The position numbers and the translations under genes were made by a program. From Cryptosporangium arvum DSM 44712 (GTDB lineage Bacteria; Actinomycetota; Actinomycetes; Mycobacteriales; Cryptosporangiaceae): 64,000 nt of DNA. The DNA lies in assembly GCF_000585375.1 (NCBI RefSeq), contig NZ_KK073874.1:1488001-1552000 (forward strand), in the 5' to 3' direction. A model generated the notes under the pieces. It had not been told where the DNA came from. It saw only the letters and a list, made by a program, of their open reading frames with translations, and made no database searches. Each line of letters starts with the position of its first letter. The stretch's first letter is position 1. Shown one piece after another: positions 22,918 to 25,315 of the stretch.

Positions 22918-22992
22918 TCGACGAAACGAGTTTGCCGCCCGCCGACCTGGGAACATGCCACGACGTTCAAGCTTCCACAGGAAGGAACGTCA

Positions 22993-23277
22993 ATGGCGAT
23001 CAACGACGACGACATCGTCACCTCGGGCTCAGGCCGCGCCGAAGGCACGGCTGACGGTGGCGCGAACCCGGGCGGTCACGACGGCGGCGCCGACGGTGGC
23101 GCCGACGGTGGTGCCGAGGGTCCGGCCGACGGTGGCGCGAACCCGGGTGGCCACGACGGTGGCGCGGACGGCGGTGCCGACGGTGGTGCCGAGGGTCCGG
23201 CCGACGGTGGCGCGAACCCGGGTGGCCACGACGGTGGCGCGGACGGCGGTGCCGACGGCGGCGCGTCGCGGCTGTGA
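22993..23277 (+). CDS. Asp/Gly/Ala-rich three-repeat peptide, candidate modified-peptide precursor
   Basis: 94 aa from ATG 22993 after AGGAAGGA. A 19-residue acidic leader-like segment (MAINDDDIVTSGSGRAEGT) is followed by three 25-residue repeats (20-44, 45-69, 70-94), each made of ADGGANPGGHDGG then further A-D-G-G steps; the third ends in SRL. Each repeat has a single Asn-Pro and a single His. No hydrophobic segment and no cysteine. The TGA overlaps the GTG of the JmjC oxygenase gene, so peptide and enzyme are translationally coupled. A ribosomally made, post-translationally hydroxylated peptide is the idea; a structural or calcium-binding role is an alternative. Confidence 0.8.
   Translation: MAINDDDIVTSGSGRAEGTADGGANPGGHDGGADGGADGGAEGPADGGANPGGHDGGADGGADGGAEGPADGGANPGGHDGGADGGADGGASRL
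23050..23274 (+). repeat. Three 75-bp in-frame tandem repeats
   Basis: Copies at 23050-23124, 23125-23199 and 23200-23274. Copies 2 and 3 are identical over their first 59 bp; copies 1 and 2 differ at seven third-codon positions only, all synonymous. Confidence 0.9.
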
Positions 23278-24485
23278 CTGATTCTTCGCTGCGGACGACC
23301 GGCCTTCCGGCCGGTCGTCCGGCGTTGGAGCGCTGTATCTCGGTTCCGGTGGCGGATTTCCCCTGGGGACGTCGGCCGCTGCTGAGCACCGGCCTCGGCT
23401 TCGGTGACCTGTTCGGCCTGGACGACGTCGACGAACTGCTCACCCGCCGCGGGCTGCGGACGCCGTTCATCCGGCTGGCCAAGGGCGGCGAGGTCATCGA
23501 CCCCCGTCGGTACACCAGCTCCGGCGGTGCCGGCGCCGAGATCGCCGACCAGGTCGACGACGAGCGCGTCACCCGGCTCTTCCTCGACGGCGCCACGATC
23601 GTTCTGCAGGCGCTGCACCGCACCTGGCCACCGCTCGTCGACTTCGGACAGCAACTCGCCGCGGACCTCGGCCATCCGGTGCAGATCAACGCGTACGTCA
23701 CGCCGCCGCAGAACCAGGGCTTCTCGGCCCACTACGACGTCCACGACGTGTTCGTGCTGCAGGTGGCGGGCGAGAAGCAGTGGCGGATCCACGCACCGGT
23801 GCTCACCGACCCGCTGCGTAACCAGCCGTGGAACTCGCGGGCCGCTTCGGTCGCCGCGCGGGCGTCAGAGGAACCGGTGATCGACACCGTCCTGCGCCCC
23901 GGCGACGCGCTCTACCTGCCGCGGGGCTGGCTGCACTCGGCGACCTCGCTGGGGGAGACGTCGGTCCACCTCACGGTCGGCGTGCACCCGGTGACCCGCC
24001 ATTCGCTGGTGGAGGTGCTCGCCGGGTTGGCCGCCGAGGACCCGTCCCTGCGCGAGTCCCTGCCGCTGGGCTTCGACCCGACCGACCCGAGCCTGCTCGC
24101 CGGCGCGGTGGACGCGCTGTCGTCCTGGCTGCGGACAGTCGACGCCGACGCGGTCGCCGACCGTCTGCGTGAGCGGGTGTGGCCGCAGGGGCGGTCGGAG
24201 CCGGTGTCACCGCTGGCGCAGGAGCGAATCGTCTCGTCGCTGACCGCGGATACGCCGGTGCGGCTGCGGGGCTTCCTGCCCCACACCGTGGACGTCCGCG
24301 CGGACGGCGTCGTGCTGCGCCTGCCGGACCGGACGCTCACGCTCCCGGCGGTCACCGCCGCCGCGATGAAGACGGTTCTGTCGGGCACGGTGGTGCGCGC
24401 CGCGGAACTGCCCGATCTCGATGCCGACGACGGCCTGGTGCTGATACGGCGCCTGCTGCGTGAGGCGCTGGTGGTACCGGCTTGA
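23274..24485 (+). CDS. ROX/YcfD-type JmjC (cupin_4) 2-oxoglutarate oxygenase
   Basis: 403 aa from GTG 23274. The JmjC core is at residues about 95-245. Iron ligands read H153-x-D155 (SAHYDVHDVFVLQVAG) and H221 (LPRGWLHSATS), matching the PHFDQYDVF and PGFPH pattern of YcfD, MINA53 and NO66; the dimerisation and winged-helix parts follow (to about residue 400). This family hydroxylates Arg or His residues in proteins using O2, Fe(II) and 2-oxoglutarate. The gene overlaps both the repeat peptide (4 bases) and the ferredoxin (1 base), so the peptide is the likely substrate; a ribosomal protein is the alternative. Confidence 0.9.
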   Translation: MTDSSLRTTGLPAGRPALERCISVPVADFPWGRRPLLSTGLGFGDLFGLDDVDELLTRRGLRTPFIRLAKGGEVIDPRRYTSSGGAGAEIADQVDDERVTRLFLDGATIVLQALHRTWPPLVDFGQQLAADLGHPVQINAYVTPPQNQGFSAHYDVHDVFVLQVAGEKQWRIHAPVLTDPLRNQPWNSRAASVAARASEEPVIDTVLRPGDALYLPRGWLHSATSLGETSVHLTVGVHPVTRHSLVEVLAGLAAEDPSLRESLPLGFDPTDPSLLAGAVDALSSWLRTVDADAVADRLRERVWPQGRSEPVSPLAQERIVSSLTADTPVRLRGFLPHTVDVRADGVVLRLPDRTLTLPAVTAAAMKTVLSGTVVRAAELPDLDADDGLVLIRRLLREALVVPA

Positions 24486-25315
24486 TGCCGCGCTGCGCGG
24501 TCACCGCCCGGGAACGTGGCGACCAGCTGTTCGCCACGGCCGCGCCCGGGGAGCGCTGGCTGCTGGTGGAGCATCCCGGGCCGTGGCCCCGCCGGGCCTT
24601 CGAGGCGTCGCCGGAGCTGACGCGCGTGGCCGAGCGGGCCGTCGCGTCCGGGTTCCGGGCGGTGCTGATCCGGCGGCCGGGGCGCTCGCCGGCCCGCGAG
24701 GTCCGGTCCTACGCCGTAGTGGACGCGCGGCCGGGGCGGGAGGGCATCTCGTGGGGGACGTTCACCGCCGAGGCGGAGTTGCTCGACGTGCCGCTCGCGC
24801 TGGATCCGTCCTTCTCGGACGAGCCGGTGCACCTGGTGTGCGCGCACGGCCGGCACGACACGTGTTGTGCGGTGGAGGGCCGGCCGGTGGCGGCCGCGCT
24901 GGCCGACGCGTACCCCGGCCGTACCTGGGAGTGTTCACACGTCGGTGGCGACCGGTTCTCGGCGAACCTCGTGCTGCTGCCGCACGGCCTGTACTACGGG
25001 AGGCTCGATCCCGGCGCGGCCCTGGAGGTGGCCGCCGCGTACCGCGCCGGCCGGGTGGTGCCCTCGCTGTTGCGCGGCCGCTCGGTGTTCGCCCCGGCCG
25101 TGCAGGCCGCCCAGCACTACGCGCGCCTGGAGAGCGGCAACGACGGCGTCGACGCGTTCGGCCCGCTGGGGATCGAGGCACTCGACGCTTCGACGACCCG
25201 TGTGCGGCTCGAGGGTGCGACGGTCACCGTGCGTATGGGCTGGTCGGAGCCGGCGGTGCTGACGTGCGCCGCCGGCGGGCCCGAGGTGGCGCGGGTGTTC
25301 AGCCGCGTTCAGTAG
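24485..25315 (+). CDS. Suc_Fer/Apd1-like thioredoxin-fold ferredoxin
   Basis: 276 aa from ATG 24485, whose A is the last base of the oxygenase stop. The sucrase/ferredoxin-like pattern is clear: LVCAHGRHDTCCAVEGRPVAAAL (C119, C127, C128), WECSHVGGDRFSANLVLLPHGLYYG (C150, H152, H167), and a second alpha/beta half. Apd1-type proteins carry a [2Fe-2S] cluster held by Cys and His. A redox role next to an Fe(II) oxygenase fits re-reduction of its iron. Its end overlaps a convergent gene by 7 bases. Confidence 0.85.
   Translation: MPRCAVTARERGDQLFATAAPGERWLLVEHPGPWPRRAFEASPELTRVAERAVASGFRAVLIRRPGRSPAREVRSYAVVDARPGREGISWGTFTAEAELLDVPLALDPSFSDEPVHLVCAHGRHDTCCAVEGRPVAAALADAYPGRTWECSHVGGDRFSANLVLLPHGLYYGRLDPGAALEVAAAYRAGRVVPSLLRGRSVFAPAVQAAQHYARLESGNDGVDAFGPLGIEALDASTTRVRLEGATVTVRMGWSEPAVLTCAAGGPEVARVFSRVQ

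Follow-up and report, generated by a model that had tools for sequence, protein, structure and literature searches.

A repeat-peptide gene paired with a JmjC oxygenase in actinobacteria: a candidate system for modifying Asp-rich peptides

A three-gene cassette and the conservation of its peptide/oxygenase pair

The stretch of DNA analyzed here, which we call the window, comprises 64,000 nucleotides of the Cryptosporangium arvum DSM 44712 genome (contig NZ_KK073874.1, positions 1,488,001 to 1,552,000). Within it, three forward-strand genes form a compact cassette: a gene for a 94-residue Asp/Gly/Ala repeat peptide (22993-23277, ATG start), a gene for a 403-residue JmjC_2 oxygenase (23274-24485, GTG start), and a gene for a Suc_Fer-like protein (24485-25315, ATG start, or TTG at 24482). 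An earlier reading of the sequence alone, hereafter the original prediction, had described three overlapping genes, and we confirmed these at the same coordinates, with an overlap of 4 bases (GTGA) between the peptide and oxygenase genes and of 1 base (TGATG) between the oxygenase and Suc_Fer genes. The oxygenase is of the ROX type, resembles NO66, and is predicted to depend on Fe(II) and 2-oxoglutarate; the peptide is its proposed substrate, and the Suc_Fer-like protein, with a predicted thioredoxin-like ferredoxin fold, is accessory to the pair.

A ribosome-binding site read from the sequence, AGGAAGGA (22979..22986), lies 5' of the peptide ATG. The peptide opens with a short stretch, MAINDDDIVTSGSGRAE (22993..23043), that could serve as a leader, continues with three 25-residue repeats beginning at residues 18, 43, and 68 (GTADGGANPGGHDGGADGGADGGAE, 23044..23118; GPADGGANPGGHDGGADGGADGGAE, 23119..23193; and GPADGGANPGGHDGGADGGADGGAS, 23194..23268), and ends in RL. 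Each repeat contains one His and one Asn-Pro. Comparison of the three repeats gives ratios of synonymous to nonsynonymous codon differences of 8:1, 11:2, and 3:1, and because the codons differ mostly synonymously, the protein sequence of the peptide appears to be maintained. No Pfam family and no NCBIfam model matches the window peptide, and the peptide of a relative reached the NCBIfam model SdrC at an E value of 1.5, far under the SdrC cut-off. NCBIfam likewise has no model matching the oxygenase or the Suc_Fer protein, and in PHROGs, the oxygenase matches three families of unknown function (best 7e-23), with nothing for the other two proteins. A codon pattern for D-G-G-A-D-G-G-A has six matches in the 9.2-Mb, one-contig genome, all inside the peptide gene, and the same genome holds a single JmjC_2 match and a single Suc_Fer match, both at the cassette. 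As a genome-wide marker, the codon pattern was rejected as too loose, with at least one match in 199 of 394 genomes.

We followed the pair through three genome sets, which overlap in that the first shares genomes with the other two. The first comprised 61 genomes (C. arvum and relatives), 34 of them with a ROX match; the best 30 matches, the window's own included, were taken as loci, and an Asp-rich repeat open reading frame (ORF) lies directly upstream of the oxygenase in all 30. A scan in which each species was represented by a single genome yielded at least 565 confirmed relatives of the oxygenase, orthologous or not. Among the best 80 loci, a selection biased to close relatives, 77 have the repeat ORF upstream (in one of them, L058, only the ORF end is present because the contig starts there), and in the remaining three, the contig ends 16-103 bases upstream. 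The third set was a sample of the class, 394 genomes with a match in 132, in which orthologues were defined as matches above 370 bits (the next match scores 264). At least 63 of the 394 genomes carry an orthologue, some lower-scoring matches being fragments. Fifty of the 63 were inspected, and 49 have an Asp-rich repeat ORF upstream: all of one group of 30 and, among 20 more, 18 with the same kind of repeat and one (L199) with a DGTD-type core; the last (L197) has a non-repetitive ORF.

The association is specific in its placement. Across 1.24 Mb from the 80 loci, covering 11,843 ORFs of at least 50 residues, ORFs with at least four DGG[A/S/T] units number 75 before ROX and 0 elsewhere. Peptides could be extracted from 101 of 110 loci (4 of the others are truncated, and 5 were missed by the start rule though a peptide is visible). 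In 92 of the 101, the peptide gene ends between -60 and +20 bases from the aligned start of ROX, and in 53 it overlaps ROX. In a tree of 91 ROX sequences, whose precursor types were labeled by eye (L173 was labeled peptide-less and later seen to have a peptide), the 67 DGGA rows cluster with L197 in a single, strongly supported group (100/98); precursor type tracks the tree, with 8 changes as against 23.5 when the labels are shuffled. The original prediction had taken the peptide to be the substrate, and in every orthologue sample the outcome was the opposite of oxygenases occurring mostly without a nearby peptide. Since the oxygenases nearly always have the peptide upstream, a dedicated substrate is the best reading of it, and we consider that role very probable.

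In one genus (f8 g9), four oxygenase matches carry an internal stop (G388, G309, G396, and G404), and an upstream peptide ORF is still present at the three of these matches that have loci (L156, L161, and L183).

The oxygenase and its Suc_Fer partner

The oxygenase matches the Pfam family JmjC_2 (PF08007) at 3e-28, with 98.3 bits against a curated cut-off of 22. The presumed iron ligands, His153 and Asp155 in an HYD motif (23730..23738) and His221 (23934..23936), are invariant in 27 sequences. Profile comparison with solved relatives ranks NO66 (1e-34) and MINA53 (1.5e-27) ahead of a YcfD-like protein (6e-15), YxbC (1e-12), and YcfD itself (2e-9), so of the "ROX/YcfD-type" label initially given to this enzyme, the ROX-type JmjC assignment holds and the kinship to YcfD is much more remote. 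The predicted structure, with a predicted local distance difference test score (pLDDT) of 92.5, agrees: Foldseek returns NO66 chains first, at template-modeling (TM) scores of 0.65-0.71 by query, and the model has the NO66 fold including the C-terminal domain.

That C-terminal region (residues 328-403; 24255..24482) is modeled as four strands, a helix, a short helix, and a further helix, an order of strands then helices compatible with a recognition element of the kind used for ribosomally synthesized and post-translationally modified peptides (RiPPs). As outlined in PMC12710340, RiPP recognition elements are defined by strand/helix order, fish and algae have proteins that join an RRE-like fold to a PF08007 JmjC domain, and the closest bacterial homologues are placed in RiPP-like contexts. 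Judging from the model, the winged-helix-like domain may bind the precursor; we put this forward tentatively, having lowered our estimate because the N-terminal motif of the peptides described below is not general.

The Suc_Fer-like protein matches its Pfam family (PF06999) at 1e-18, with 68.6 bits against a cut-off of 34.9. Its putative cluster motif, C119-x8-C128...H152-x3-D156 (24839..24952), has Asp rather than His in the fourth position. In an alignment of 40 sequences, CX8C and H152 are invariant, and the fourth position is Asp in 34, Cys in 4, and Glu in 2. The initial "Suc_Fer/Apd1-type" description was thus right about the domain, and the fourth His ligand of Apd1 is absent from all 40. 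The structural model is confident (pLDDT 95.3), and thioredoxin-like ferredoxins rank first in the fold search, led by that of Aquifex (TM 0.72 by target, E 1.5e-3), with none at E <0.001; a sequence search for solved relatives gave nothing sound.

A Suc_Fer gene lies near ROX in 24/30, 65/80, 28/34, and 21/30 loci of overlapping sets, counts that are lower bounds (two adjacent genes had escaped the last). When 13 genomes without a Suc_Fer gene seen beside ROX were searched whole, 7 proved to have one, 2 beside ROX and 5 elsewhere; the search found none in five Micromonospora-like genomes (G018, G030, G039, G047, and G055), nor in G171. The five Micromonospora-like genomes keep the pair without Suc_Fer, and we rejected this protein as an essential part of the cassette. 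Of the three-family set first proposed, peptide and oxygenase are conserved together, and Suc_Fer is frequent yet not in every cassette.

Target residue and candidate mechanism

We compared 94 distinct peptides, taking the sequence after residue 14 as the core. The peptides consist of 37% Gly, 19% Ala, and 18% Asp, none contains Cys, and the repeats differ in number and type among precursors. Asp, Gly, and Ala occur in all 94 cores, whereas His is missing from 16, Asn from 65, Pro from 8, and Arg from 67. Core Asp is followed by GG in 999 of 1,340 cases, successive Asp residues are spaced by four in 750 of 1,246, and each core has 6-25 Asp (median 14.5). At the N terminus, a loose rule detects a motif of the type D..[I/M].[T/S] at 127 of the 155 loci that have a repeat ORF; a count of 91/94 for D..[I/M] is partly built in, since the peptide starts were chosen by a similar rule. 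One peptide, from Geodermatophilus ruber (L081), carries a helix-like insert, GLIDKVRDKVRDVIGGDK, inside its DGGA repeats.

On balance, and with moderate confidence, we favor an explanation that treats the cassette as a RiPP-like pair of precursor and modifying enzyme. This explanation builds on gene content, adjacency, and co-conservation and on conserved iron-ligand residues and predicted folds, all of which the data show. The ribosome would make a precursor whose N-terminal stretch is short and whose core consists of A-D-G-G repeats that mostly space Asp by four residues, and the JmjC Fe(II)/2-oxoglutarate oxygenase from the overlapping downstream gene would oxidize core Asp, most simply at C-beta to give 3-hydroxyaspartate. 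Part of the precursor may be held by the C-terminal winged-helix-like domain, and the Suc_Fer thioredoxin-like ferredoxin, where present, would act as a redox or iron partner. Asp is probably the oxidized residue, favored because this chemistry is possible in all precursor types, and whether the oxidation is a beta-hydroxylation we regard as evenly balanced. Because no conserved transporter or protease gene was found nearby, the product may be retained intracellularly or completed by enzymes that are not specific to this pathway. Beta-hydroxy-Asp is known to bind metals, and a poly-hydroxy-Asp chain might have a metal-binding role, though such a role is a guess. In a more speculative version, which we think improbable, Actinomycetes would share a widespread and hitherto undescribed peptide class: intracellular chains with many 3-hydroxyaspartates, mostly spaced by four residues, made by a single JmjC oxygenase with a built-in precursor-binding domain and loaded with and discharged of metal by a ferredoxin with a possible Asp cluster ligand, giving a gene-encoded polymeric metal buffer under stress.

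Other explanations have to be weighed against this one. The peptide could be the substrate with the His (or Asn) of each repeat hydroxylated, much as NO66 and MINA53 act on ribosomal proteins. The enzyme is indeed closest to these His hydroxylases, the window repeats each offer one His and one Asn-Pro, and His accounts for 129 of the 269 residues directly before DGGA, more than any other amino acid. Yet this site lacks His in 32 of 90 peptides and holds a mixture of His and other residues in 23, the six DADx/DGTD-type cores (L163, L169, L180, L030, L031, and L199) have neither His nor Asn, and the cores lacking one or the other were counted above. We consider this reading unlikely, and the proposal of His or Asn-Pro as the target in the original prediction is not borne out; nor are its three modified units per chain, which fail because they were built on the wrong target, set against 6-25 Asp per core.

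Just as unlikely, in our view, is that the true target of the oxygenase is a housekeeping one, for instance a protein of the ribosome, with the peptide as partner, decoy, or regulator. The names of the closest solved relatives, which are ribosomal-protein hydroxylases, lend this some appeal, and so very acidic a peptide could mimic or compete. The patchy spread of the orthologue above 370 bits (63 of 394 genomes), the switch of peptide type with oxygenase clade, and the maintenance of the repeats through synonymous change argue against it. Equally doubtful is a different oxidation of the core, by desaturation, decarboxylation, or backbone cleavage at Asp, with electrons from Suc_Fer. Varied chemistry has been described for oxygenases of RiPP pathways, and Suc_Fer stands beside the pair in most loci (at least 65 of 80), but the five Micromonospora-like genomes do without it, and biphenomycin biosynthesis uses JmjC enzymes that are described as hydroxylases.

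Several observations weigh against a RiPP-like pair that oxidizes Asp. Constancy in the cores does not set Asp apart from Gly and Ala, so the Asp assignment rests on chemistry plus conservation. Going by their names, the closest solved relatives of the oxygenase hydroxylate His or Arg in ribosomal proteins, and none of them Asp. As for the N-terminal D..[I/M] motif, 28 of 155 loci lack it, and among L182-L201 only 6 of 18 have it; because it is not general, a shared leader is not established, and we rejected a general leader motif on these freer counts. A Pfam search of the oxygenase C-terminal region found no recognition domain. The winged helix is an ancient feature of ROX enzymes and, being old in the family, need not bind a leader. 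L197, 1 of the 50 inspected orthologues, has a 95-residue Asp-rich upstream ORF without repeats, and among more distant ROX loci, six (L162, L164, L167, L168, L171, and L177) have no convincing Asp-rich upstream ORF and one (L165) is ambiguous. The lack of a conserved transporter, exporter, or protease gene near the cassette counts on the same side, as does a search for an IdeR/DmdR-type iron box in 101 upstream regions, where the best matches were no better than shuffles, which also speaks against an iron-regulated metallophore.

Known systems, surroundings, and distant ROX loci

The cassette oxygenase shares with NO66, MINA53, and YcfD the JmjC_2 domain, the HxD...H residues, and the overall fold including the C-terminal domain. 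It differs from all three in that its gene adjoins one for an Asp-rich peptide at almost all loci examined and in its substrate, which we infer is not a ribosomal protein, and from NO66 in a stretch, RRGLRTPFLR, that sits in an alignment gap of that protein. A functional parallel is offered by BipG (JmjC) and PbsQ (JmjC or cupin-like), described as hydroxylating ornithine in biphenomycin RiPP precursors (PMC12707348, PMC12257519). In these, as we propose for the cassette, a JmjC/cupin oxygenase acts on a ribosomal precursor. By the same descriptions, the biphenomycin residue is Orn, hydroxylated after arginase action, and the clusters include MNIO and radical SAM enzymes; the cassette has no arginase, MNIO, or radical SAM enzyme conserved alongside, and its core is an Asp repeat. 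The JmjC proteins of PMC12710340 combine PF08007 with a strand-strand-strand-helix-helix-helix domain in RiPP-like bacterial contexts, and the description given there names no precursor family, repeat, or Suc_Fer partner. The Suc_Fer protein shares with the Apd1/Aim32 ferredoxins (PF06999; PMC8482512, PMC11126956) the Suc_Fer domain, CX8C, and the first His, and 1m2a is among the thioredoxin-like [2Fe-2S] ferredoxins that its model matches. The CX8CXnHX3H motif reported for Apd1/Aim32 (PMC8482512) differs in its last position, which is Asp, Cys, or Glu and never His in the 40 cassette sequences.

The Asp-repeat peptide/oxygenase family and the string ADGGADGG did not appear in the literature searched, a weak absence for the family because subscription papers were mostly outside coverage. 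The initial statement that no such pathway had been described therefore stands for the Asp-repeat family within that literature and falls for JmjC hydroxylases in RiPP pathways, which have been described. The kind of system is thus known (RiPP-like, with a JmjC hydroxylase), and the Asp-repeat family and its architecture are apparently undescribed. With orthologues and relatives as widespread as the class sample and the species scan indicate, the data point to a peptide-modifying system in many actinobacteria whose peptide gene is unannotated, and for a sizable group of JmjC oxygenases they name a specific candidate substrate. If this is correct, enzymes resembling human ribosomal oxygenases would have bacterial peptide-modifying cousins, a link at which the literature searched only hints (PMC12710340).

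Beyond the cassette, a survey that started from 11 seed loci and covered 34 diverse loci found no ORF of at least 100 residues, except ROX and Suc_Fer, in more than 5 of the 34, and we rejected a wider operon on this basis. Taking the sigma-B/F-like consensus as G[G/T]TT-N12-17-GGGTA, we found the strict pattern upstream of 19 of 101 peptides, as against a mean of 0.13 in 30 dinucleotide-shuffle sets, with many of the matches coming from closely related Micromonosporaceae; it occurs in 17% of 75 upstream regions and 0.45% of random windows. A relaxed pattern matches 40 of the 101 regions versus 13.7 in shuffles. The window has a weak match to the relaxed pattern alone, GTTT-N15-GGGAAC (22930..22954, forward strand), in which the strict GGGTA is not met. 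We treat a link between the cassette and stress as a lead.

More distant ROX loci have an Asp-rich upstream ORF in 13 of 20 cases. At 257-288 bits, ROX is found with other repeats, DADGTDG in L169 and L180 and DADST in L163, and these three loci have an L[S/A]DDDM-like N-terminal stretch and a Suc_Fer gene, with cores free of His and Asn; L162, at 263 bits, has no repeat peptide. At 120-190 bits, ROX often follows a short upstream ORF with an Asp/Ser/Thr/Gly tail. In one family of the class (L166, L170, and L172), peptides with DGTDSSSDFI-like ends, as in DSDGTDSSSDFI, precede ROX, and in L166, a prolyl oligopeptidase adjoins the pair (Pfam was checked in one neighborhood, L202). A second ROX-linked peptide family (L173, L174, L175, L179, and L181) has SDGGGTGRSDxND-like tails. 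In L176 and L178, from family f32, a DGSDG-type ORF lies upstream of ROX, and a Suc_Fer gene is nearby on the opposite strand (neighborhoods L209 and L210). Finally, each of the four neighborhoods tested, which were picked by eye (L205, L208, L215, and L210, from the genomes of L175, L174, L173, and L178, respectively), has a gene for an aldo/keto reductase after ROX; such a reductase beside a paralogous ROX would fit work on a hydroxyl.

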